DNA from: Desulfobulbaceae bacterium
GTDB taxonomy: Bacteria > Desulfobacterota > Desulfobulbia > Desulfobulbales > Desulfobulbaceae
Direction: 5' to 3'
Length of the DNA stretch: 42,128 nucleotides
Assembly: GCA_024763055.1 (NCBI GenBank)
Contig: JANTGH010000015.1
Coordinates: 1 to 42,128 of the forward strand
In this document: positions 4,585 to 18,755 of the stretch, in pieces
Position numbering within the stretch: position 1 is the first letter of the stretch
Layout of the letters: each line of letters starts with the position of its first letter
Program-made: the position numbers and the translations under genes
Notes under the pieces: model-generated
What the model was told of the DNA's origin: nothing
Database searches by the model: none
The model's input: only the letters and a program-made list of their open reading frames with translations

Positions 4585-4938
4585 ATGAAAGAAACCGTAC
4601 AGATATTCAAGGCACTTTCCGAAGAAATCAGGTTGCGCATCCTGGCGCTGCTTTTCCACGGCGAGCTCTGTGTATGCGACCTGATGGAGGTCCTGGAAAT
4701 GCCGCAGTCGACCATTTCCCGTCACCTTGCTTATCTTCGCAATGCCGGGTTGGTGAGTGGAGAGCGGCGGGGAAAATGGATGTATTACCGGCTTGCCTCA
4801 GAAACAGGTAGAACGGCCCGCGTCCAGCTCGAACTGCTGGCTGAAAATTTGCCCCAACTCTCTGTCATCAACCAGGATCGCCGCCGCCTTGTCACCTATC
4901 TTGCCGGGAAAGACGAAGCGAGTTGCACTGACAAATAA
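4585..4938 (+). CDS. arsR: ArsR family metalloid-responsive repressor
   Basis: A 117-residue winged-helix repressor of the ArsR/SmtB family. The signature ELCVCDLMEVLEMPQSTISR places Cys29 and Cys31 at the start of the recognition region, as in As(III)-sensing ArsR proteins; Cys114 near the C terminus could be a third ligand. The rest (HLAYLRNAGLV, RRGKWMYYRL) is the usual recognition helix and wing. It would repress its own operon and release DNA on binding arsenite or antimonite. The start at 4585 is fixed by an in-frame stop at 4576. Genes for ACR3 and ArsC follow at once in the same direction. The family assignment is firm; the exact inducer is inferred from context. Confidence 0.93.
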   Translation: MKETVQIFKALSEEIRLRILALLFHGELCVCDLMEVLEMPQSTISRHLAYLRNAGLVSGERRGKWMYYRLASETGRTARVQLELLAENLPQLSVINQDRRRLVTYLAGKDEASCTDK

Positions 4939-4956: not shown

Positions 4957-6042
4957 ATGCCAACCACCAAAAAACTCTCCTTTCTTGACCGCTTCCTGAC
5001 CCTGTGGATTTTTCTGGCCATGTTTACAGGTGTCATGATTGGCTATCTCTATCCGCCGGTGACCGACATCATCAACCATTTTCAGGTGGGAACCACCAAT
5101 ATCCCCATTGCCGTCGGCCTGATCCTGATGATGTATCCGCCGCTGGCCAAGGTGCGCTATGAAAAGCTGCACGAGGTTTTCCGCAACACCAGGGTGCTGA
5201 CGCTCTCCCTGATCCAGAACTGGATCATCGGGCCGGTCCTGATGTTCATTCTGGCCATTGTCTTTCTTTCAGGACACCATGAATACATGGTGGGTCTTAT
5301 CCTCATTGGTCTGGCCCGCTGCATTGCCATGGTCATTGTCTGGAATGATCTGGCAAACGGCGACCGTGAATACTGCGCCGGGCTGGTGGCCTTTAACTCC
5401 ATTTTCCAGGTTCTCTTCTTCTCGGTCTATGCCTGGCTCTTTATTACAGTGCTGCCGAAACTGCTCGGCATTGAGGGCGCGGTGGTGGATATCTCCATCG
5501 CCCAGATAGCAAAGAGTGTCCTCATCTACCTGGGGATTCCATTTTTTTCAGGCATGCTGACCCGGTTCATCGGCCTGAAGACCAAGGGTGAGGTCTGGTA
5601 CCAGAATGTCCTGCTGCCCAAACTCAGCCCCCTGACCCTTGTTTTTCTTCTGTTCACCATCCTGGTCATGTTTTCCCTCAAAGGCGAATACATCGTCGGA
5701 TTGCCCCTGGATGTGGTTCGCATTGCCATTCCGCTTTCCATCTACTTTCTTGTCATGTTCCTTGTTTCCTTTTATATGTCCTATAAGGTCGGCGCCACCT
5801 ACGAGCAGGCAACCACCCTGTCCTTTACCGCCGCTTCAAATAACTTTGAGCTGGCCATTGCCGTTGCCATTGCCGTCTTCGGTATCAACTCCGGCGAGGC
5901 CTTTGCCGCAGTCATCGGCCCCCTGGTTGAGGTGCCGGTTTTAATTTCCCTGGTCAACGTGGCCTTTTGGTTCAAACGAAAGTATTTCCCGATTGCCAGA
6001 GAAACAGCGCAGGGTATCTGCCATATCAGCTGTGAGGAATAA
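4957..6042 (+). CDS. acr3: ACR3 family arsenite efflux permease
   Basis: A 361-residue inner-membrane protein with about ten hydrophobic segments, the usual size for ACR3 (bile/arsenite/riboflavin transporter superfamily). Diagnostic features are [19 protein letters not shown], with the conserved membrane Cys near residue 125, and the [18 protein letters not shown] segment with its conserved Glu near residue 297. It exports As(III), the product of the ArsC encoded next. The ATG lies 18 bp after arsR and is preceded by AGAACGGAACC, a weak ribosome binding site. Its position between arsR and arsC strongly supports the function. Confidence 0.94.
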
Positions 6043-6051
6043 GGAGCGGCC

Positions 6052-6498
6052 ATGCCAGAAAAAAAGAAAACAAAAATACTCTTTCTCTGCACCGGCAATT
6101 CCTGCCGCAGCCAGATGGCCGAGGGATGGGCAAAGCAGTTGAAAGACGATACCATTGAAGCATTGTCGGCCGGAATAGAAAAACATGGCATGAACAAGCA
6201 GGCCATTCAAGTGATGGCCGAGGCCGGAGTAGATATCTCCAGCCACCATTCAAAGTTGATCAGCGAGCTGGATGAACAGGATTTTGACTATGTGATCACG
6301 GTCTGCGACCATGCCCACGAATCCTGCCCGCTCTTTCCCGGTAAGGCTAAAATTATCCACAAAGGGTTTGACGATCCACCCCGGCTGGCTGCCGGGGCCG
6401 CCAGCGAAGAAGAGGCCCTGGAACAGTACCGCCGGGTGCGTGATGAGATCAAATCTTTTGTAGAAACTCTACCGGAAGCACTGCAGAAAACAACATAA
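6052..6498 (+). CDS. arsC: Thioredoxin-coupled arsenate reductase
   Basis: A 148-residue protein of the low-molecular-weight phosphatase fold. The P-loop CTGNSCRSQMAEG (nucleophile Cys near residue 14) and the pair in VCDHAHESCP supply the three cysteines of the S. aureus pI258-type mechanism, in which As(V) is reduced to As(III) and the resulting disulfide is reduced by thioredoxin. The start follows AAGGAG by about 6 nt. It closes the arsR-acr3-arsC operon; the cytoplasmic product is exported by ACR3. The thioredoxin encoded at 7936-8313 has a signal peptide and so is unlikely to be its direct donor. Confidence 0.94.
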   Translation: MPEKKKTKILFLCTGNSCRSQMAEGWAKQLKDDTIEALSAGIEKHGMNKQAIQVMAEAGVDISSHHSKLISELDEQDFDYVITVCDHAHESCPLFPGKAKIIHKGFDDPPRLAAGAASEEEALEQYRRVRDEIKSFVETLPEALQKTT

Positions 6499-7219: not shown

Positions 7220-7927
7220 TTATGCAAATAACCACGGTCTGGCAATAAAATACATTCCCAGTATTCCTATCACCATCCCGGCGCCTTTGCGAAAAACCGC
7301 CCCTCCGTGCTGAAAAGAGGAGTTGGCGATCATTTTTTTAACGGTGGCCGCAGAACTGCCGGCAATGACAATGGGCGTGCAGTGGCCAAGGGCAAAGAGC
7401 GTCAAAAGCAGCAGGCCGGTGGCAATCTTTTCCTGAACCGTGATGATGGCCAGGATCGGGGCGATAAAGCCGAAGGTGCAGGAACCTGAGAGGATACCGT
7501 AGGCCAGCCCCAGGACAAAGGCCCCGCCAAGACCCTGCAGGTGCAGGCGGCCAAGGGAGTTGGGCATCCTGCACTTGGCAATGCCCAGCATGTCAACGGC
7601 TACCCATATCAGAATACCACCGAGAAGCAGGGTCCAGTAGGGGCCCACATCACCCAGCATCCGGCCCAGGAACATGCAAATCACCCCGACCACCGCAATG
7701 GTGATGAACAACCCCAGGGTAAAAAGCAGGGCATAGGGAACGGCCTTTTTCCCTTCCAGGATAGAATCCTGACCACCGACGTAGCCGATAATCAGAGGGA
7801 TGGAGGCCATGTGGCAGGGGGAAAAGAGCACACTGACCATGCCCCAGGTAAAACAGCCAAATGCTGCCACAAAAAGGCCGCCGTTGCTTATCCAACTGTT
7901 GATGGTGAAAAAAATATGTTCAAGCAT
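7220..7927 (-). CDS. ccdA: CcdA/DsbD-type transmembrane thiol transporter
   Basis: A 235-residue membrane protein with about six helices, the size of CcdA. The two redox cysteines sit in FSPCHMASIPL and SGSCTFGFIAP, the paired motifs of the DsbD/CcdA core. It would carry electrons from cytoplasmic thioredoxin across the membrane to periplasmic thiol proteins. The gene lies 8 bp after a periplasmic thioredoxin gene that is the obvious acceptor. The reducing pathway is typically needed for cytochrome c maturation, which fits the multiheme cytochromes nearby, though a role in detoxification cannot be excluded. Confidence 0.9.
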   Translation of the reverse strand: MLEHIFFTINSWISNGGLFVAAFGCFTWGMVSVLFSPCHMASIPLIIGYVGGQDSILEGKKAVPYALLFTLGLFITIAVVGVICMFLGRMLGDVGPYWTLLLGGILIWVAVDMLGIAKCRMPNSLGRLHLQGLGGAFVLGLAYGILSGSCTFGFIAPILAIITVQEKIATGLLLLTLFALGHCTPIVIAGSSAATVKKMIANSSFQHGGAVFRKGAGMVIGILGMYFIARPWLFA

Positions 7928-7935
7928 GGACGCCT

Positions 7936-8313
7936 CTACTTCCCAAGCAGGGTGTTCAGTTTTCCTTCAATAGTCTTCTGATCCAGAAAACCGGCATGAC
8001 GCCAGACCTCTTTGCCCGATGTATCAAAAAACACCTGGGTCGGAATGGCACGGATGTTAAATTTTCTGGCCATCTCCCGGTCTTTCATAACATCCACAAA
8101 CAGGATGGCCGCCCTGCCCTTGTATTCTTTGGTCAGGTTTTCCAGCACCGGTTCCATCATCTTGCAGGGAATGCAGGAAGTGGAGCCAAGATCCACCATG
8201 GTCACCGTGTCCTTGACCGGAATTTCCGGCTCACCCCAAGCCGTCTGCAGAAAGCAGAAGGAGAGAAGGAAAGTTGCCACGAGGACAAAGGGTTTCAACG
8301 TATTCGTCTTCAT
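7936..8313 (-). CDS. Periplasmic thioredoxin-like protein
   Basis: 125 residues with an N-terminal signal sequence (FVLVATFLLSFCFLQTAWG) and a thioredoxin fold containing the active site STSCIPCKMMEP near residue 45 and the cis-Pro loop IRAIPTQVFF near residue 88. AGGAG lies 5 nt upstream of the ATG. Directly followed by ccdA, it would accept electrons from CcdA and reduce periplasmic disulfides, for example in apocytochromes. It is preceded by its own promoter candidate, so this three-gene unit may be expressed independently of the cytochrome operon upstream. Confidence 0.9.
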   Translation of the reverse strand: MKTNTLKPFVLVATFLLSFCFLQTAWGEPEIPVKDTVTMVDLGSTSCIPCKMMEPVLENLTKEYKGRAAILFVDVMKDREMARKFNIRAIPTQVFFDTSGKEVWRHAGFLDQKTIEGKLNTLLGK

Positions 8314-8408: not shown

Positions 8409-8864
8409 CTATTTTTGATCTTTTGTGCTGCGCACCAACCGGACATAGCCCTTGTCCTTGACCACCAGATTGTAATCACCTCGACAAAAGCATTCAAGTT
8501 CAAGCCGGGCCGGCACAAGGCCTTTTTTTTCATCAATAAGCCAGTACTTGCTCTTTAATTTGGGAAAATGACAGTCCTCATTCCCCTGGATGGCAACCAG
8601 GCCGCGGAGCTCGCAGCTCTCCCTGGTGGTGGGCAGACGCCAGTCGTCATAACCGCCGAGTTTAACACCGGCCACATACTTTTTCACCGCAGCCAAATCA
8701 GAAAAACGTTTGCCCTTGTCGATCTGCCACATCAGGCCGGTTGTTTTGTCCAGGCAGATGCCGTTGCCCAGGTTCTGCAATGACCCTGCCAGTGCCTTAC
8801 TGCCGGACAGTCCAAGAATACAGATCGCCAGGATACAGAAAATCTGCCAAAATCGTCCATGCAT
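8409..8864 (-). CDS. Exported DUF1566 (Lcl C-terminal-like) protein
   Basis: 151 residues. A signal peptide (IFCILAICILGLSGSKALAG) is followed by the DUF1566 pattern: NGICLDKTTGLMWQIDKGKRF, GGYDDWRLPTTRESCELRGLV and a C-terminal FCRGDYNLVVKDKGYVRLVR. Proteins of this family are exported and resemble C-type-lectin-like folds found in adhesins and the Legionella Lcl protein; no enzymatic role is established. A strong AAAAGGAGG lies just upstream of the ATG. It follows the octaheme cytochrome by 115 bp on the same strand and so may be an accessory surface or periplasmic partner. Four Cys in the mature part could form disulfides, which would suit the thioredoxin gene downstream. Confidence 0.85.
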   Translation of the reverse strand: MHGRFWQIFCILAICILGLSGSKALAGSLQNLGNGICLDKTTGLMWQIDKGKRFSDLAAVKKYVAGVKLGGYDDWRLPTTRESCELRGLVAIQGNEDCHFPKLKSKYWLIDEKKGLVPARLELECFCRGDYNLVVKDKGYVRLVRSTKDQK

Positions 8865-8979: not shown

Positions 8980-11490
8980 TTATTTATTTATAGAGCACAG
9001 TAACCGGGTAAGCAACCCGAATACAGCCAGGGCGACCAGCGAAACAGCGCCGATATCATGCAGGGTGAAGACAATCTGTCGCAGATCCATGGACTCTGCA
9101 AAAAGGAGAATACTCCCTGTTGTTGCCATAAAGACAATGCCGATAACACCGAGGACAAAAAGCAGAGATCTACTCCCCTGCCCCCTGATAATCATCAACA
9201 CCACTGCCAATACCATGAGAATGGCCACGGCCTTATGGATATTTCCCAGCACTCCGATCACCTCCGAAGAAAGAAGGTCGCCGCCTAAAAGAATGATTGC
9301 CGGACCAAGAATGGCAACACCGAGAATGGCCAACATATGGCGCATGGCTGGATCGGTCGTCAAGGTAGAGCAGGAACCCGGGACAATGGAAATACCGGGA
9401 ACAAGCAAAATAACGACAAACAGGGTACCGGCGGCAAGAAGGCCGTAGAAGAGAACAGGTTCCAGGACCTGGTGGCGCAAGGCCCCCATGGTAACACCAA
9501 GATTCGACAACCCGAGAAGATGGGCATTGCTTATCCAGGAGCTGTGGGCATCATCGCCGACAAAGGGTTTGGCCATGACCGGGCGGTGCCAGAATGGAGA
9601 GCTGTTGCTGTGGCAGTCGGTACAGCCTCCGGCGCCAAGGGCGCTGTCGGCGGGAGCAATATCGTGGCTCAGTTTAAAGACCGAAGAATACGGAGTATAC
9701 TGCCACGGCTCCGGCCGAAACTTCAGGGGTTGCCAGTTCGTGCCGTCAAGGGTGTAGGTGTCGCCTGATACCAGGGCAATATTTTTTCCGTCCAGAGGTT
9801 CATTCTGTTGTATCAGGTAGGTTGTCACCGTTTGCAGGAGCGCCTGTATTTCCTCCGGCCGGTTGGCCTCGGGAGCGCCGTCTTTATTATCATCCTTGAT
9901 GATATTCAGTTCCGGCCATACCTTACCGGGATTCTTCCGGTGGCCGGCCCACATTTTATACAAATCTTTCATGTAGGGCTGTCCGGTAATGGTACCGGCA
10001 TCATCCATGATGGCAATCCAGATACTGTCGATCCGGTTCAGGGGATATATTTTCCCCTTGTACCAGGCCCTGACGGGACTGAAAAGATGGAGAGGCTGTC
10101 GTTCAACAGTAAAGGTGCTTGCCTCACCATACAGGTTCCATGGTTTCATTTCCGGGCCATAAAAGGTCCAGATGCGTTTTCCCGGCACTGAAATCCTGGG
10201 AACATCATTGAACACGGTACTGTCCTGCATCAACGCGGCTTTCACCTGGCGTTGCGGTACGTGGCAGGTAAGACAGGCGATTTTTTGCAGATGGATCGGC
10301 GGTAATCCTTTATGAGTGGCGATCTTGGTGCGCAGTTCGCCCCGGAAGTGGCAATCCTCACAGGTACGCAGGGAGTTATCAAGATCATTGCGCACCAGGC
10401 CGGTGGGGTCGTCTCCCTTGCCGATTTGATGCATTTCTCTGCCGGCAATACGTTCGTCCAAAGCCTTGCGACCTGCAACATGACAATCCACACACTTGAG
10501 TCCGGCCCGAAAATGGACATCGGTACGAAAATTATACGAGGCTCCTTTTTTCTTCCAGTCCGGTTCCCGATGACAGTGGAGGCAGTTTTCGGTTGGAATT
10601 TCCCGGACCATGGGCAGGGCGACCTTGCCATCGGATCGAAACATGGAGAGATTGTATGTAAGCTTTGGCTTTTCATGGCGGGCAACACTGCCCGTCACGG
10701 TGGCAAAACCCGCCCCGGCGGTGGCCGCCCATCTGAAGTTCAGGGCCTTTACCTGTTTTTTGCGAAGACCATATCCATATTCCGGCATGTGGCACATAAG
10801 ACAGTCGGCCTCAAGCACGCCGCTTTCCGCCCAGCCGGCCTTGTAATAGTCGCCGTCAAAGTTGTTGTCGCCACCGGAGATTATGTTGTTTTTCGGGTCG
10901 GCGGCAAAGAGGTCGTACCGTTTGCCGTTGCGGTCATACTCCGCCGGACCGCCACCGGGATGACAACCGCCACAGGTCTGAACAAAGGTATAGGAGGTCA
11001 GGTCGATGGCCCGACCATTGCTGTTTGCCTTTTTCTCCAACTGGCGATAATTAGGGGCAGCGCTTCAGTATCGTCCTCCATACTGGCCCGGTGTCCGCAT
11101 CCAGGGATAGAGAGCGGCGAGTTCAGGTGAGAGTTTCTCATCCTTTCCCTGCTGAAAATGATAGCCGCTGGTAATCCGCTGATAATCATGGCATAGGCCG
11201 CAGGTTCTCTTCGGGCTGTAGGGTTGTTGTACGTTGACTCCATGCACCGGATCAATCATCCGGCCCTGTTCATCGTGCAGGAAAAAGGGTGGACAGACCG
11301 ACATGAAATCCCGCCGGGCAAGTTCCGCCGCAGAACGCTCGCTCACCTTGGCATGGAACCCCTGGGGAGAAGAGGCGGCCCTTACCGCCCCCGGTATGAT
11401 CGAAATCGAAATCAACAACAGAAGCAGGCCCGGGTGGAGAAAACGGGTGCGGCCTTGCAGAAATCTTCTTTTCTTTCCAAAATTTTTCAT
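8980..11490 (-). CDS. Octaheme membrane cytochrome c, probable selenoprotein (in-frame UGA)
   Basis: Read through one TGA at 11065-11067, this gives 836 residues. ATG 11490 follows GGAGGT by 6 nt and begins a signal anchor (LLLLLISISIIPGAVRA). CXXCH heme motifs start near residues 97, 173, 230, 303, 333, 377, 406 and 623; the UGA is codon 142, between hemes 1 and 2, in the context GQYGGRY-U-SAAPNYRQ. From about residue 675 to 830 several hydrophobic helices anchor the protein. Without the UGA the first heme and the export signal would be separated from the other seven, so one protein is implied. A SECIS-like hairpin follows the UGA. The gene starts 54 bp after the RND pump stop on the same strand. 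A periplasmic electron-transfer role is inferred; the substrate is unknown. A nonsense mutation is the main alternative. Confidence 0.7.
11028..11055 (-). promoter_or_regulatory. Candidate bacterial SECIS element
   Basis: Counting from the base after UGA, bases 10-12 CCU pair with 35-37 AGG, 15-16 UU with 33-34 AA, 18-19 UC with 30-31 GA, and 21-22 CC with 27-28 GG, closing a loop AGUU at 23-26. There are two 1x1 mismatches and one 2-base bulge. The apical loop begins 22 nt after the UGA and has G in its second position. This fits the published consensus for bacterial SECIS elements (G in the first two loop bases, loop about 16-37 nt from UGA). The pairing was done by hand. Confidence 0.55.
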
Positions 11491-11543
11491 ACCATTACCT
11501 CCAGAATAAAAAATAGATCCTTCCATCAACAGGATACAGTCCC

Positions 11544-14500
11544 TTATGATATATTATGATGAAACCAGGAGTTGACGCGTAAGCGGCCGCTTTCCAGAAC
11601 ATGAAAGAGTACCGGAACCACCAGCAGGGTCAGGAAGGTGCCCACCACCAGCCCGCCGATGGCGACCACGGCCATAGGTGAGAGTCGTTCAATCCCGACC
11701 GCCCATTCCAGAGCAATGGGGATCATTCCCACCGCCGAGGCTCCTGCGGTCATCAGGATAGGCCGAACTCTGTGCCTGACCGCATCAAGCAAGGCCTCCC
11801 GCAAATCAAGACCCTGACGCATGCCCACCTTGGTAAAATCGACCAGCAGGATACCGTTATTGACCACGATCCCCATCAGGAGAATAAAGCCCATGAACGA
11901 GGGCATACAACCGTGTTTTCCGGCCAGCATCATAGCCCAGGCCGCGCCGATGACCGCCAGCGGCAGGCTGATCATGATAGCCAGGGGATCAAGAAAGGAT
12001 CTGAAGGTGATGGCCAGCATCAGAAAGAGAAAAGCGAGCCCCAGGGCCAGGGATTTGCCCAGCCGTTTGAACGATTCGTTCATCTGTTTGATCTCACCCT
12101 CATAACTTAAACTGTAGCCCCGGGGTAGTTTGAGATCGGCCAGGGCCTTTTTGACGTTTTCATGGAGGTGGGTGACAGCGATGTCACCGCGGTATCCGAG
12201 CACATCGACGGTTGGCAGCAGCCGCTGATGGGTCTCGGCAGTTGGAACATAGGCGGTTTGCAGGGTAGCCAGCGCGGTCAGGGGGATGGTCTTGCCGTTC
12301 CTGGCTCTGACCGGGATGGCCTGCAGCTGTTCCATCCCCGAGCGCTGCTGCAACTGATATCGGACTCGGACAGGAATGGGGTTTTCACCGTTAATCCGTA
12401 GCACACTTCCAGGTATCCCGCCCACGGCAGCGGCCACCTGACGGGCAACGTCCCCGGCAGTCAGGCCGTACAATCTGGCTCTGGCCGGATCGACATCAAG
12501 ATTAATTCGTGTCGACATGCCCTGCCAGCTCCGTTCCGTACCGGTCAATCCCCGCACCTTCTGCAATCGAACCAGGATTTCATCGGCCAAACTATCTAAG
12601 ACCGAGGTATCCGGGCCGGTAATCATCACATCTACGGTTGAGCGGATTGATGAAAGCGGTGTTGAGCCGAAAACCGTCACATTGGAGGCAATGAGGCCGG
12701 GGATTTTTTTCAGGCGGGTACGAATGCCACGGTTAATGTCATAAATGGTCCGATCACGCTGGTACCTATCCACCATATTGACGGTGACTGTTCCCTGTTG
12801 CAGCAGCCGGGAAGCGCCAAATGATTTCACTCCCGGCTCGGATCCGATCACGGTCGACATGTAGAGCATCCATTTCTCAGGCACCTCGGCCTTGATTGCC
12901 TTCTCCACCTGCTCGGCAACCCGCTTCATTGCATCGTCATCAACATTGGGCTGGGTCTCAAAATCGACCGAAATAACGCCGGTATCCATCAGCGGCATCA
13001 ACTCCTTGCCAAGCATGGGCATCTGACGGGCGGAAAAGACAAACAAGCCGGCCATAACCAGCAGAACAAGCAGCCTATGGGTCAGTCCCCAGTCAACCAT
13101 GGCTATATAGGCCTGGCGCAACGGATTGAGGACAAAACGCTCAAAAGGGCTGAGCAGGCGGGCAATGGGATCGGGTGCGCCCGGCTTGAGCAGCCAGGGA
13201 ACCAGCAGTGGAATGATTGTCACCGAGACGATAAGTGAGGACGCCAGCGATACGGCAAGGACAACGGACAAGGGTCTCAGGGTGTTCTGAACATAACCGC
13301 CGATAAACATAATCGGGATCAGGACAATGATAACACTCAAGGTGCCTGCGGTATCTGCCAGAAGGATTTCCGAAGTGCCCTGGGCCGCAACCTTGAGACC
13401 GCCCTGGCCGGTGGCCCGGATATGACGCTCGATATTTTCAATGACCACAATGGCATCATCAGTCAACAGTCCCACGGCAATGATGATGGCGGTCAGGGTC
13501 ACCATATTGAACTCAAAACCCAGCAGTTTCATGAAGGCAAAGGTGAGTACATAGGTGAAGGGCAGAGACATGGCAGTGATTAAGGATGCACGGGTATTCC
13601 CCAAAAAGAGGAGGATAACACAAAGGGTCATGATGACCGCATCCCGCAGGGAACTGAGCATATTGTCCACGGTCAGGTCAATGAGCCTGCCCTGGGTATC
13701 GGTAACCTCCATGTGAAGCATGGAAAAATCTTTTTTTATCTTAGGGAGTTGTTTCTGGATCTCGGCGATAACCTCGCGGGCATGGCCGTTTTCGCTGCGA
13801 AGCAGGGAAACCGCAACCGCAGGCTTGCCATTGCCCCGGTAGAAAGAAGTCGCGTCCGACCTGCCCCACCCGACCGTGCCGAGATCATCGACCCGAACGT
13901 ATGTGCCATGGGTCACCGGCACCATGATAGCGCCAATTTCGGTAGGCCCAATAGCCAACGCCTCCGCCGTCAACAGGTAACGATTCCCCTGACGATGGAC
14001 AAGGCCGGTGGGAATGGAAACATTGGAACCGACCAGAGCGCCCGCCACCTCGGCAGGGGTCAGGCCATGGGCCTCAAGTTTATTGCGATCAAGATCAACG
14101 GAGACCTCAATGCGATCCCCGCCGAATACTTCGGCCTCTGCCACTCCGGGAATTCCCAACAGTTGATCCCGCAGCTGATTTTCGGCCAATCGGCGAAGCC
14201 GGGCCAAATCAAGATGGACACCGGGTGCCGAGGTCAGCCCTAAAACCATCAGGGGACGGGCCGCATCAGTGATCTTGAAAATAAGAGAGTCCTTGACCCC
14301 GGCCGGAAGCATACTCTGTACCCGGCGCAGTTCGGTGATCACCTTGGTGGCCGCCATATCAATGTCATTGCCGTATTCAAACTCCACCTGGACGGCTGAA
14401 ACCTCATCCTTTGAGGTGGAGGTCACCCGCCGCACCCCGTCAATGGCGGTTAATCGTACCTCGATGGGATGGGTCACATCCGTAGCCACATCATTGGCGA

Positions 14501-14663
14501 CTGCTCCGGGCCAGGGAGTCACCACCGAGACCACCGGCCGGTTGGTGTCCGGAAAAAGATTCATGGGCAGGGTCGCATAGGCCAGCAGGCCCGCCACCAC
14601 CCCGACCAGGACAACAGCGATAATGGCATGGGGATAGCGGAGAAAACGTTCCATCGGGCTCAT
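11544..14663 (-). CDS. RND efflux permease (AcrB/HAE-type)
   Basis: A 1039-residue inner-membrane transporter of standard RND length, with TM1 at residues 10-32 and large periplasmic loops after TM1 and TM7. The TM4 motif GLLTDDAIVVIENIERH carries the paired Asp of the proton relay, as in hydrophobe/amphiphile exporters. The second half repeats the plan (FGSTPLSSIRS, YGLTAGDVARQVAAAVGG, GIVVNNGILLVDFTKVG). Its ATG overlaps the stop of the membrane fusion gene (ATGA), showing translational coupling. With the MFP and TolC-like proteins it forms a tripartite pump across both membranes. The neighbouring thiol-redox and cytochrome genes hint at a metal(loid) or redox-active substrate, but the sequence alone does not identify it. 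Confidence 0.93.
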   Translation of the reverse strand: MSPMERFLRYPHAIIAVVLVGVVAGLLAYATLPMNLFPDTNRPVVSVVTPWPGAVANDVATDVTHPIEVRLTAIDGVRRVTSTSKDEVSAVQVEFEYGNDIDMAATKVITELRRVQSMLPAGVKDSLIFKITDAARPLMVLGLTSAPGVHLDLARLRRLAENQLRDQLLGIPGVAEAEVFGGDRIEVSVDLDRNKLEAHGLTPAEVAGALVGSNVSIPTGLVHRQGNRYLLTAEALAIGPTEIGAIMVPVTHGTYVRVDDLGTVGWGRSDATSFYRGNGKPAVAVSLLRSENGHAREVIAEIQKQLPKIKKDFSMLHMEVTDTQGRLIDLTVDNMLSSLRDAVIMTLCVILLFLGNTRASLITAMSLPFTYVLTFAFMKLLGFEFNMVTLTAIIIAVGLLTDDAIVVIENIERHIRATGQGGLKVAAQGTSEILLADTAGTLSVIIVLIPIMFIGGYVQNTLRPLSVVLAVSLASSLIVSVTIIPLLVPWLLKPGAPDPIARLLSPFERFVLNPLRQAYIAMVDWGLTHRLLVLLVMAGLFVFSARQMPMLGKELMPLMDTGVISVDFETQPNVDDDAMKRVAEQVEKAIKAEVPEKWMLYMSTVIGSEPGVKSFGASRLLQQGTVTVNMVDRYQRDRTIYDINRGIRTRLKKIPGLIASNVTVFGSTPLSSIRSTVDVMITGPDTSVLDSLADEILVRLQKVRGLTGTERSWQGMSTRINLDVDPARARLYGLTAGDVARQVAAAVGGIPGSVLRINGENPIPVRVRYQLQQRSGMEQLQAIPVRARNGKTIPLTALATLQTAYVPTAETHQRLLPTVDVLGYRGDIAVTHLHENVKKALADLKLPRGYSLSYEGEIKQMNESFKRLGKSLALGLAFLFLMLAITFRSFLDPLAIMISLPLAVIGAAWAMMLAGKHGCMPSFMGFILLMGIVVNNGILLVDFTKVGMRQGLDLREALLDAVRHRVRPILMTAGASAVGMIPIALEWAVGIERLSPMAVVAIGGLVVGTFLTLLVVPVLFHVLESGRLRVNSWFHHNIS

Positions 14664-15805
14664 GGCAACTCTCCAGGGGCAACGGTGACGGCATCACCAT
14701 CATGCAGCTGCAGAAGGACGCTTTCATGGGCAATGACAACACGGTCGCCTACCTTGAGTGCGCCGGTTACGGCAATGGCGTCATGACCGCGCAACCGCAC
14801 CTGCACATCGACCATTTTCAGGCTATTTTTTGTCTTTTTCTTATCTTCCTGAACAATGGTAAAAACACGGCACTGTGCATCGCCCTCCCCGCAGAGCAGG
14901 CTGCCGTAAGACACCCGGAACCCGTCCGTGACCCGGCGCAGGATTATTCGCGCATCAATGCGGGAACCACTGGGCAGGTCAAAGGGAATGGCATCGACAT
15001 CGGCTTCCACAAAACCAAACGCCCTGGCGTCAACAGAGGGAAAAATACGGCTGACCTGCACGGTCATCCGCTGGTCACCAAAGGAAAGCACGACAGGGGC
15101 GCCGGGACGAACCTGATGGAGAATGGACTGGGGCAGTTCTACCCGAACCAGAGCGCCACCGGCAGCAGTAATTCTATTTAAGGGATGGCCGGGGACACAC
15201 ATATCGCCGGGTTCGGCCAGACGGGCGGCAATGATACCATTGACCGGACTTTTGATAACACCATACTCTTTTTCCACTTCCAGAGAACCTGTCTGATGCT
15301 CAAGCGAGGCAACCTTCTGTTTGGCAGCCACGGCAGCAGTCCGTCTGGCATCAACAGCGGAAGCGCTGCTGCCGCCATCCTTGAACAGCTTTTCTTCCCG
15401 CACCAGTTCATGACCGGTGCGGGTTGCCTCGGCGCGGGCCGCTATAAGCTGGGCTTGAAGGGAATGAATTTTTTTTTCAATCTCGCTGGTATCAATACGC
15501 ACCAGCAGGTCGCCTTTTTTTACGGCCACACCTTCACGCGGTCCCATTTCAAGTATCCGGCCCGTAATTCTGGCCATGATGGTCACCGGCTGACGACTGG
15601 CAATCTTTGCCAGGGCGGGAAAACCTGAAGTCACCGGTTCATCGGTTACAGTGGCAACATGTAAAGCCCAGGGCGCAAGGGTCTCTTTCGGCACATGGGC
15701 AACCTGCAAGGCTCTTCGCTTATGAAGAATAACTGCCCCGGTAGCCGGAATCAAAACGACGAGAAACAGTATTAGATAGGTTAAAAATTTTTTCCTGGTG
15801 ACCAT
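14660..15805 (-). CDS. RND periplasmic adaptor (membrane fusion protein)
   Basis: 381 residues with an N-terminal membrane anchor (FLTYLILFLVVLIPATGAVIL) and the MFP/HlyD arrangement. A lipoyl half-motif IMARITGRILEMGPREGVAV-KKGDLLVRID is followed by a helical hairpin (residues about 110-170, HSLQAQLIAARAEATRTGHE onward), the second lipoyl half SPVNGIIAARLAEPGD, then beta-barrel and membrane-proximal domains. It links the RND pump to the outer-membrane channel. AAAAAGGAG lies just upstream of the ATG. It is transcribed between the TolC-like gene and the pump. A GEGDAQCRVF insert near residue 305 contains a Cys; its meaning is unknown. Confidence 0.92.
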   Translation of the reverse strand: MVTRKKFLTYLILFLVVLIPATGAVILHKRRALQVAHVPKETLAPWALHVATVTDEPVTSGFPALAKIASRQPVTIMARITGRILEMGPREGVAVKKGDLLVRIDTSEIEKKIHSLQAQLIAARAEATRTGHELVREEKLFKDGGSSASAVDARRTAAVAAKQKVASLEHQTGSLEVEKEYGVIKSPVNGIIAARLAEPGDMCVPGHPLNRITAAGGALVRVELPQSILHQVRPGAPVVLSFGDQRMTVQVSRIFPSVDARAFGFVEADVDAIPFDLPSGSRIDARIILRRVTDGFRVSYGSLLCGEGDAQCRVFTIVQEDKKKTKNSLKMVDVQVRLRGHDAIAVTGALKVGDRVVIAHESVLLQLHDGDAVTVAPGELP

Positions 15806-15850
15806 GAAGGCTCCTTTTTATTTAAAAAAATCTTATTCCGGAAAACAGGC

Positions 15851-17197
15851 TTAAGGGGTTGCGGCAGACTTTTGATAGGCATAAGGTTCCAGTCCGAGCG
15901 CACGTCTGACATGATCTCCGGCCTGCCACCAACTGGTCAGGGCAAGGACCTTATTTGATCTGGCCGAGGCCAGCGCGGCTTCGGCATCCACCAGATCAGC
16001 TGCCGAGAGCCGACCTTCGGTAAAACGGTCGGATTGAATCCGTTCTGTTTCCCGGGCTGCCGTGACAGAGGCAATTGCCGCCTGATAGCCGACCCGGGCC
16101 GCCTGCCAGTCCGCCTGGGCCGCAACAACTTCCGCCCTGGCCTGGTTTTGGAGCGCGGCCAGATCATGCCTGAGCGCCAGACGGTTGGACCGGGCCTCTT
16201 CAACCGCGGCCCTGCGGCCACCGCCATCCCAGAGTGGAACCTGCAGGGTGGCAAACAGGGCCCAGGTATCATCACCTTCGCCATTGAACCCCTGATTTCG
16301 CAGCCAGGAGCCGGAAAGACCCAGAGCCGGCAGACGGTCGGCAAAGGCAGCCTGCACCCTGGCATCGGCGGCTTCGCCCTTTGATTGGACAACCTGAATA
16401 TCCGGCCGATTGTCAATTTTTCCGGCCTGGGCGCTGAAAGCGCCCGGTTTGTCAGCAACAGGAGCAACCGGCTCGGAAAAAGAAGGCACGCCCATAAGCG
16501 ATGCCAGCCGAGCCCTGATACCCTGTTCATTGCCGGTCAGGGCGGCCAGTTTTCCTTTCACTGCCTCCTGATCGGCAACCAGGCGCAATTTTTCCACCGG
16601 CGCCACCCTGCCGGCACCAATGGCAACCGTGACAACCTTGATATGAGCGATCAGTGCCTCAATCTGCTTGTGCAGAGCCTCTTCAAGGCCCTTAAGTCCT
16701 TCAAGGTTATGATAAAGATCGGCTGCCAAGTGCAGCACATGGAGACGGACATTTCCCTCTCCGGCCAGGACCGCGGCAAGTTCCTTATCCGCCGCTTTTA
16801 CCCGGGCCGTAATCCGTCCATTGATATCAAGCGGCAGACGACCGCTGACTCCGTAGCCGATCTGATTATCATCAAAGAGTTCAGCCCGCATATTGACGGG
16901 AAAGGTCATAGGATTGATCAACCGGTCATCATCATAGTTACTGCTCTTTGCCAGGGCGTCAATCTCACCGAAATAGCTGCTTTTTTCTTTCTTCAGAGCT
17001 GACTGCTGCGCCTTTGTCCGCGCATGGGCCGCCTGCAGGGCCGGTGTGTTCTTTTCCACCTGCAGCAGGATATCACTCAGATTCCGTGCCTGAAGCGACG
17101 CGGAAAAACCCAGAAATAACAGGCAAAAAAGCAGCGCCGCTCCAGCTCCTCTCGACACGCTCCGGTATGACGAAGTTTTGTCGATTTTTTTCACGGC
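15851..17197 (-). CDS. TolC family outer membrane efflux protein
   Basis: About 448 residues. After the signal peptide (AALLFCLLFLGFSASLQA) come two related OEP halves with long helices typical of TolC: LSDILLQVEKNTPALQAAHA, then NRPDIQVVQSKGEAADARVQ and a final coiled region RFTEGRLSAADLVDAEAALA. The ATG at 17197 is chosen because it directly precedes the signal peptide; the frame extends upstream without a better start, and no clear Shine-Dalgarno is seen. It lies 20 bp after a small thioredoxin-like gene and 45 bp before the MFP gene, so all three pump components and the thioredoxin appear to be in one transcript. Confidence 0.9.
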   Translation of the reverse strand, partial: AVKKIDKTSSYRSVSRGAGAALLFCLLFLGFSASLQARNLSDILLQVEKNTPALQAAHARTKAQQSALKKEKSSYFGEIDALAKSSNYDDDRLINPMTFPVNMRAELFDDNQIGYGVSGRLPLDINGRITARVKAADKELAAVLAGEGNVRLHVLHLAADLYHNLEGLKGLEEALHKQIEALIAHIKVVTVAIGAGRVAPVEKLRLVADQEAVKGKLAALTGNEQGIRARLASLMGVPSFSEPVAPVADKPGAFSAQAGKIDNRPDIQVVQSKGEAADARVQAAFADRLPALGLSGSWLRNQGFNGEGDDTWALFATLQVPLWDGGGRRAAVEEARSNRLALRHDLAALQNQARAEVVAAQADWQAARVGYQAAIASVTAARETERIQSDRFTEGRLSAADLVDAEAALASARSNKVLALTSWWQAGDHVRRALGLEPYAYQKSAATP

Positions 17198-17217
17198 CAT
17201 GCGACAATTGTATCGAT

Positions 17218-17448
17218 TTACCCGAGCCACTCTTCCACCTCGGCCTGTTTGGGGACCCGGCCGACGCATTTCACCTCGCCGTCAATGACCACAGCCGGGG
17301 TGGAAAAGATGCCCAGCTTGGCCATTTCCGCAAAATCAGTCACCTTACTGATAGAGGCATCACTTCTCTTTGCCGCAACAACATCCTGAACAACCTTTTC
17401 CGCCTGTTTACAGGACGCGCATCCTGGTCCGCATACTTTGATTTCCAT
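17218..17448 (-). CDS. Small thioredoxin-like protein (thioredoxin_3, MTH895 type)
   Basis: A 76-residue cytoplasmic protein with the thioredoxin_3 pattern: MEIKVCGPGCASCKQAEKVV with a CASC active site, the loop FSTPAVVIDGEVKCVGRVP, and a final helix. Such 'redox-active disulfide protein 2' members often accompany PF03773 permeases and ArsR regulators, as here, where the permease gene lies 33 bp upstream. It may bind or reduce a thiol-reactive metal(loid), or serve the permease's cysteines. AGGAGAAGAAGAT precedes the ATG. The role is inferred from co-occurrence, not demonstrated. Confidence 0.88.
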   Translation of the reverse strand: MEIKVCGPGCASCKQAEKVVQDVVAAKRSDASISKVTDFAEMAKLGIFSTPAVVIDGEVKCVGRVPKQAEVEEWLG

Positions 17449-17481: not shown

Positions 17482-18567
17482 TTAGATAATCATATTGAAT
17501 AAGAAACCGGTAAATAAAATTCCGCTGCCAACAACAGCAATAAACACAGTGATCAGTGCTGGTTTCAGCACCTTACGCAGAATAACCATTTCCGGCAGAG
17601 ACAGGGCAATAACGCTCATCATAAAGGCCAGCACCGTTCCAAGAGCCGCGCCTTTTCCCAGCAGTGCTTCGACAATGGGCACAATTCCTGCGGCATTGGA
17701 ATACATGGGTATACCGACCAGAACCGCGGTAGGAACCGACCACCAGGCGTCCTTACCCATAATGGAAGCCATAAAATCCTCCGGTACATAACCATGGATG
17801 GCCGCGCCGACACCAATGCCGGCGACCACATAAATCCAGACCTTACCGACGATATCCCGCACAGCTTCACGGCCGCGCTGCACCCGATCCGCCCAGGTGA
17901 GTTTTTCTTCAACCACAACAGCCTCTGCCGCCCGCAACTCCTGAACCCAGTCTTCAATCCAGTGTTCAAGATGGAAACGGCCGATGATCCAGCCTGAGAC
18001 CATGGCAATCATAAGCCCGGTTCCAAGGTATAAAGCAGCAACTTTCCAGCCGAGCAGCCCATACAGCAGAATCAGGGCGATCTCGTTAACCATTGGCGCG
18101 GCGATAAGAAAGGAAAAAGTCACTCCCAGTGGTACCCCGGCCTGAACAAAGCCAAGGAAAAGCGGCACTGCCGAGCAGGAACAAAACGGTGTGACAATGC
18201 CAAGCAGGGAGGCCATGACATTGCCGGCGGTTTCACGTTTTCCGGCCAGATATCTTCGGGTGCGTTCCTGGGTGAAAAAAGAACGAATCATGCCGACGAT
18301 AAACACGATCAGGGTGAGCAGCATCATGACCTTGGGAACTTCATAGACAAAAAACTGGATCGCACCCCCGAAATGGCCGTCTTTTTCAAGACTGAGCAAG
18401 GAGTAGGTAAAGAATTCTGAAAAAGGCTCTAATTGTCCGTAGATAACATACCAGAGCACAAGCCCTATCATGCCTAAAAAGGCTGCCTTACATTTGCTTT
18501 TGCTTTCCAAGGGCAGGTCTGATTCCGATTTTGTGCACCCGCAACCGGGAGTTTGAATAGGTTCCAT
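17482..18567 (-). CDS. PF03773 (ArsP_1-like) permease
   Basis: About 361 residues with eight or so membrane helices. The family signature GIVTPFCSCSAVPLFLGFVQ carries the CSC motif, followed by GVTFSFLIAAPMVNEIALIL and later YSNAAGIVPIVEALLGKGA. Some family members (ArsP) export trivalent organoarsenicals; others are less defined. The N terminus MEPIQTPGCGCTKSESD has a Cys-rich stretch that could bind metal(loid). ATG 18567 is preferred because AAAGGAAAATAAT precedes it; an upstream in-frame extension of 22 residues has no ribosome binding site. It is the first gene of the thioredoxin/RND/cytochrome series and is preceded by a good promoter. Confidence 0.88.
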   Translation of the reverse strand: MEPIQTPGCGCTKSESDLPLESKSKCKAAFLGMIGLVLWYVIYGQLEPFSEFFTYSLLSLEKDGHFGGAIQFFVYEVPKVMMLLTLIVFIVGMIRSFFTQERTRRYLAGKRETAGNVMASLLGIVTPFCSCSAVPLFLGFVQAGVPLGVTFSFLIAAPMVNEIALILLYGLLGWKVAALYLGTGLMIAMVSGWIIGRFHLEHWIEDWVQELRAAEAVVVEEKLTWADRVQRGREAVRDIVGKVWIYVVAGIGVGAAIHGYVPEDFMASIMGKDAWWSVPTAVLVGIPMYSNAAGIVPIVEALLGKGAALGTVLAFMMSVIALSLPEMVILRKVLKPALITVFIAVVGSGILFTGFLFNMII

Positions 18568-18755
18568 ATTATTTTCCTTTGTTATTACCTCTGCAATCCC
18601 GAAAAAATAACTGCCTCGGGCAGGGCTATGCACTTTCGAATTATTACGGCAACAAAAGCCCTGTTTTTCTCCGCAACAAGGGTAAGGCCCAACACTCTGC
18701 CGAGATCAACCACGGCCTTCGTGACTCGAACAATCCCTTTTACAACAATCTATAT

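Follow-up and report, generated by a model that had tools for sequence, protein, structure and literature searches.

Multiheme c-type cytochromes that contain selenocysteine (Sec) are represented by two families, ExtKL (NF040886) and the octaheme tetrathionate reductase (OTR) family (TIGR04315), in the accessible part of a 2026 inventory of 119 prokaryotic selenoprotein families, where the OTR entry of Table 1 is listed as known only from GenBank annotation (PMC13188914). The original prediction, made from the letters of the DNA, knew of no described family of this kind, a point that these two entries correct. In the OTR structure credited to Mowat in 2004, Lys153 is reportedly a ligand of the active-site heme, with Cys64 next to it; to our knowledge, the physiological substrate of this enzyme is unsettled. 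The arsenic oxidoreductases of energy metabolism known to us are all molybdenum enzymes, and we know of no description of heme or quinone-linked electron transfer for the Sec-assisted organometallic (SAO) systems or for the Sec-containing arsenite methyltransferase. As covered in the accessible part of the same inventory, these latter systems resemble the locus described here in being selenoproteins that deal with toxic metals or metalloids and have ArsP-like transporters nearby, but differ from the protein encoded here in not being cytochromes (PMC13188914). In the literature searched, no paper linked a selenocysteine-containing cytochrome to arsenic, though the family may already have been named in selenoprotein papers by Haft and colleagues; the 2026 inventory takes these in and, in its accessible part, has only ExtKL and OTR under multiheme c-type cytochromes.

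The gene examined here lies in a stretch of 42,128 nucleotides from a Desulfobulbaceae bacterium (assembly GCA_024763055.1, contig JANTGH010000015.1), hereafter called the window. With read-through, one TGA is all that interrupts the minus-strand frame between 11529 and 8980, and the gene itself runs from ATG to TAA over 836 codons plus the stop. The ATG start at 11490 is located a few bases 3' of a GGAGG sequence (Table 1). Translation places the TGA exactly at codon 142, as predicted, with the same frame continuing on both sides. The 836-residue product carries CXXCH motifs at residues 97, 173, 230, 303, 333, 377, 406 and 623, together with the signal sequence and the hydrophobic helices of a C-terminal membrane anchor that had been read from the DNA. 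It is an exported octaheme cytochrome c with a C-terminal anchor of the FdnI-type cytochrome b kind.

Table 1. Positions of the Sec-containing octaheme cytochrome c gene, its elements and neighbouring genes in the window
Feature	Coordinates	Strand	Basis or remark
ArsR-type regulator	4585..4938	+	clusters with L071 protein, NF033788
ACR3 arsenite efflux transporter	4957..6042	+	TIGR00832, 455 bits
ArsC-like arsenate reductase	6052..6498	+	TIGR02691, 153 bits, below cut-off of 174.3
CcdA/ArsG-like membrane protein	7220..7927	-	cluster c5; homolog with sub-cut-off ArsG match
Exported thioredoxin	7936..8313	-	cluster c6; homolog matches PF00085
Small exported protein	8409..8864	-	cluster c16; adjacent to the cytochrome at its four closest loci
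Sec-containing octaheme cytochrome c gene	8980..11490	-	read-through translation
C-terminal membrane domain, FdnI-type cytochrome b-like, about residues 660-836	8983..9513	-	profile match to 1kqf_C
Heme motif 8, CTDCH	9610..9624	-	sequence and alignment
Heme motif 7, CLTCH	10261..10275	-	sequence and alignment, OTR alignment
Heme motif 6, CEDCH	10348..10362	-	sequence and alignment, OTR alignment
Heme motif 5, CVDCH	10480..10494	-	sequence and alignment, OTR alignment
D311-W-K-K314	10549..10560	-	aligns with OTR Asp150..Lys153
Heme motif 4, CLHCH	10570..10584	-	sequence and alignment, OTR alignment
Heme motif 3, CLMCH	10789..10803	-	sequence and alignment, OTR alignment
Heme motif 2, CGGCH	10960..10974	-	sequence and alignment
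SECIS-type hairpin, UCGCC-AGUU-GGAGA	11034..11047	-	family comparison; one G.A mismatch
In-frame UGA, Sec142 (codon 142)	11065..11067	-	between heme motif 1 and motifs 2-8
Heme motif 1, CGLCH	11188..11202	-	sequence and alignment
Cys66, possible resolving partner of Sec	11293..11295	-	shared by 33 of the 34 homologs aligned
N-terminal signal sequence, about residues 1-42	11365..11490	-	sequence; inferred
Shine-Dalgarno GGAGG	11498..11502	-	sequence
RND pump, membrane-fusion protein and outer-membrane channel genes	11544..17269	-	directly upstream; clusters c8-c10
ArsP_1 family permease	17482..18633	-	PF03773, 250 bits

General searches placed the product only broadly. No curated NCBIfam family scored over its cut-off with the window protein, and the Pfam matches over cut-off were general multiheme domains only. 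A sequence search of solved structures with this single protein gave no useful match. AlphaFold2 models were poor (pLDDT 66 for the window protein and 56 for a Cys-containing homolog without the C-terminal membrane domain), with low confidence in the heme and Sec region, and Foldseek with the window-protein model returned nothing at E < 0.001.

Homologs were found in 64 of the 395 genomes of the phylum that were searched. In two further assemblies of the same genus, a gene of 90% identity has this TGA as well. More widely, TGA occupies the position of codon 142 in 30 tabulated homologs, down to approximately 30% identity, and Cys in 11, so that the earlier impression of Cys-containing relatives was sound. 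Among homologs whose site was readable, TGA is seen in those with GGRYU or GGRWU (44-70% identity with the window protein), with M-GKFU or GKHU (about 30%) and, more distantly, with GAWU or GKWU, these last two mostly 1150-1480 aa long; the Cys-containing groups are GGRYC, GGNWC and GGRWC or GGKWC. Two long relatives of about 1480 aa (L083 and L090), with some 16 hemes, have a TGA at the same N-terminal site. Ser is found at this site in two distant relatives, encoded by TCA in L049 and by TCT in L084. In an alignment of 34 sequences, column 142 shows no variation when Sec is treated as Cys. Three Sec/Cys changes are needed on the tree, in which the Cys group composed of L014, L015 and L019 is nested inside Sec genes.

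Comparison of the Sec genes at the nucleotide level revealed a hairpin sequence 20-26 nt after the UGA, with a loop beginning AGUU, in all 30 tabulated cases. The codons that form it are nearly fixed: CGC or CCG is followed by CAG for Gln and TTG for Leu in 30 of 30 genes and by GCG for Ala in 29, the window gene being the exception. By comparison, TTG makes up 11% of the Leu codons elsewhere in these same genes, and conserved glycine-rich codons outside the hairpin vary freely. The stem occurs as UCGCC/GGCGA, CCGCC/GGCGG, CGGCC/GGCCG, CAGCC/GGCUG and a register-shifted CCGC/GCGG, and these variants include compensatory changes from U-A to C-G, from C-G to G-C and from C-G to A-U. The hairpin is gone in the old Cys lineages (L063-L071). 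On the other hand, the recent Cys genes L014, L015 (SeepSRB2) and L019 have TGT at the Sec codon and an intact hairpin, which is a fossil SECIS of a recent Sec-to-Cys change. A hairpin remnant is also visible in the Ser-encoding L049, whose genome has no SelB over cut-off and has apparently lost Sec decoding.

In the window gene, GAG replaces GCG (RQLE instead of RQLA) and produces a mid-stem G.A mismatch that is absent from the 29 other Sec genes. Such a mismatch could be tolerated or reduce read-through, or it could stem from an error in the assembly of this metagenome-assembled genome. The case for a SECIS rests on the family comparison, because the 61 nt that follow the UGA in the window gene, folded alone, were not better than shuffles; no Rfam model matched the hairpin. 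Taken across the family, this conserved and covarying hairpin downstream of the UGA is a probable SECIS, and an unusually clean one, with conservation at the nucleotide level across proteins that are only 30% identical.

The genome also encodes the machinery that selenocysteine would require. SelA (614 bits), SelB (374 bits), SelD (364 bits, with an in-frame TGA of its own) and the selC product, tRNA-Sec (72 bits, anticodon TCA), were all detected, as the original prediction had proposed to check. SelB alone does not tell Sec genomes from Cys genomes, since it scored over cut-off in 55 of 56 genomes.

These data allow the other ways of reading the UGA to be weighed. If it were a true stop, the locus would be a pseudogene, a product of sequencing error or two separate genes. 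Stop codons do normally terminate, and the window hairpin has its one mismatch, but the same TGA is present in independent assemblies and in deep relatives, and it is followed by the conserved hairpin. The frame contains no other stop, and the part 3' of the TGA has a dN/dS of 0.06-0.08, indicating strong purifying selection, in line with the earlier view that the gene is not a pseudogene. As was also anticipated, this downstream half lacks a signal sequence and a good start, having only a TTG 8 codons in, without a Shine-Dalgarno sequence, and no ATG for 81 codons. Since the same codon is found in genes of 90% identity and in families of 30-70% identity, and dN/dS is low, the TGA is not there by chance. 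Given its conservation, the purifying selection and the hairpin, pseudogene, sequencing error and two genes were all rejected, and a genuine stop is very improbable. Reading of the UGA as another amino acid, such as Trp, or general suppression found no support at all: the homologs have Cys, or Ser in the two distant cases, and never Trp or Arg, and the genome has the full Sec machinery. Trp was rejected on these grounds, and this kind of decoding is the least probable of all those considered. Collectively, the homolog column and the decoding machinery, the computational checks named by the original prediction, and the covarying SECIS-type hairpin as a further one support its selenocysteine reading, and UGA codon 142 almost certainly encodes selenocysteine, making this a selenoprotein gene. 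Because ordinary gene callers cut this octaheme gene in two, mis-annotation of the family is probable wherever it is present.

We then compared the family with the described cytochromes. The window protein alone scores 28.6 bits against the OTR model TIGR04315, well below the cut-off of 375. When the family profile was aligned with OTR by hhalign, the match reached 99.2% probability (E 1.3e-19), with hemes 3-7 co-linear, the invariant K314 opposite OTR K153 and the nearly invariant D311 opposite D150. Masking of the CXXCH letters left the same register with a weak match (P 0.0013), compared with P 0.48 for an ExtKL control. The family is thus likely, on profile evidence, to be a distant relative of OTR. 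In both, the eight hemes follow the same order and heme 8 comes after a long gap, an Asp..Lys pair follows heme 4, and a Cys or Sec lies between hemes 1 and 2.

The position of Sec142 finds a parallel in OTR. Counted from the alignment, Cys64 of OTR (PDB 1sp3) is the Cys of an NNFC sequence between hemes 1 and 2. Like the window family, OTR has Sec forms in Desulfobacterota, where NNF-TGA stands at the Cys64 position in many genomes, including the source genome, and most of these Sec genes have a hairpin of their own (CTGGTGC-AGGT-GCACCAG). The occurrence of selenocysteine in place of Cys64 in many relatives speaks for a catalytic role of this residue. Sec142 lies 45 residues after the first heme Cys and OTR Cys64 lies 42, and an aromatic residue precedes both. 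For the N-terminal part, where hemes 1-2 and Sec are located, there is no confident alignment with OTR, and the two positions are taken as equivalent by their order and spacing in a shared architecture. The comparison favours Sec142 as an active-site residue beside a Lys-ligated heme. The window protein nonetheless differs from OTR in the sequence around Sec, in its SECIS, in its additional C-terminal cytochrome b domain and in its ars gene context. The source genome itself contains a second Sec octaheme gene, of the OTR family (L140:1339-2970; G000:C2:23313-24662), with TGA at the Cys64 position and a SECIS-type hairpin.

The resemblance to ExtKL is more general. ExtKL is likewise a multiheme c-type cytochrome of Desulfobacterota with one Sec, but it has five hemes, and its Sec is located in an IPDG-U-PTPNR sequence about 50-70 residues past the last heme. 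No match of the window protein to NF040886 was found at E up to 1, and the IPDG-U-P motif is not at its Sec. Thus, while Sec-containing multiheme cytochromes are already known, the window family is outside the ExtKL and OTR models as these are scored.

At the C-terminus, the family profile matches FdnI (1kqf_C) with E 3e-4. The window protein is not over cut-off for TIGR01583, its domain being too diverged, whereas the homologs L055 and L075 are. The domain shares with FdnI-type cytochrome b a membrane location and conserved His, but is fused to an octaheme cytochrome, unlike FdnI. This likeness suggests exchange of electrons with the quinone pool.

The gene neighbourhood links the clade to arsenic. 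ACR3, ArsC, ArsM or ArsP genes were found within 9 kb in 16 of the 27 loci of the clade and in none of the 19 loci of two sister clades (Fisher p 1.7e-5, with no correction for relatedness). The linkage holds for Sec members (7 of 14) as well as Cys members (7 of 11), and the ars genes recur over many taxonomic families. All ten transporters are ACR3, and 11 of the 27 clade loci have no ars gene in the stretch available. Genes for thioredoxin and a CcdA-like protein are near the cytochrome in 9 of the 27 clade loci, and TauE/SafE and rhodanese genes in several loci. At one locus (L056:7928-12041, genome G273), the Sec octaheme gene is followed directly by a Sec cytochrome of the ExtKL family (NF040886) inside an arsenic cluster.

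With Sec coding, the export signal, eight hemes, the cytochrome b-like anchor and the arsenic linkage computed, we infer the placement of Sec at the active site, the direction of electrons, the substrate and the chemistry as follows. We lean, somewhat beyond even chances, towards a quinone-linked periplasmic octaheme enzyme in which a catalytic Sec142 acts on arsenic, or on sulfur or selenium, species. UGA 142 would be read as Sec with the help of the downstream hairpin. Electron flow would most likely connect the menaquinone pool, by way of the b-type domain and the heme chain, with an active-site heme that carries a Lys-type ligand. There Sec142 would stand where OTR has Cys64, as a selenolate that binds and attacks the substrate, perhaps with Cys66 as its partner at an OTR-like active heme. 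In the clade, the likely substrate would be an arsenic species (arsenate, thioarsenate or an organoarsenical) that is dealt with outside the cytoplasm, in company with ACR3, ArsC and ArsP; alternatively, it would be polysulfide or an oxyanion of sulfur or selenium. The periplasmic thioredoxin and CcdA-like proteins would fit a need to reduce oxidised Sec.

Two other views of the function accept the selenocysteine. The enzyme could be an OTR- or ExtKL-like reductase of tetrathionate, polysulfide, sulfite or selenite, with the ars genes as mere neighbours in a general metalloid island. The distant OTR relationship points in this direction, as do the Sec-containing sister clades without ars genes, the ExtKL gene, named for selenite/tellurite operons, directly downstream in L056, and the nearby TauE/SafE and rhodanese genes. 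The recurrence of ars genes across many taxonomic families, in both Sec and Cys members of the clade, argues against this view, and we regard sulfur or selenium chemistry as possible, at a good deal less than even chances. Conceivably, too, Sec/Cys142 serves as an unusual axial ligand of a heme or as a redox relay, and the protein is only an electron carrier. Indeed, no more than five or six His outside the motifs are conserved, too few for eight hemes, so that other ligands are needed, and K314, K358 and Sec/Cys142 are invariant. However, the pattern of Lys with Cys or Sec parallels that of the catalytic octaheme OTR, and we know of no precedent for Sec in electron-carrier hemes; a carrier role therefore seems unlikely to us. 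Compared with both, the catalytic Sec142 enzyme remains our preferred reading.

A bolder extension would make this family a new class of arsenic oxidoreductase, quinone-linked and independent of molybdenum, an octaheme with catalytic Sec or Cys that is dedicated to arsenic in anaerobes, where OTR-type octahemes in general would have Cys or Sec as their chalcogen nucleophile next to a heme ligated by Lys. We put this forward tentatively and would sooner doubt it than assert it. If true, a heme-plus-selenium enzyme in the arsenic islands of Desulfobacterota would mean that a toxic element of global importance is handled by a different chemistry. The arsenic gene setting, for its part, hints at an undescribed selenium- and heme-based handling of arsenic or of a related toxic element.
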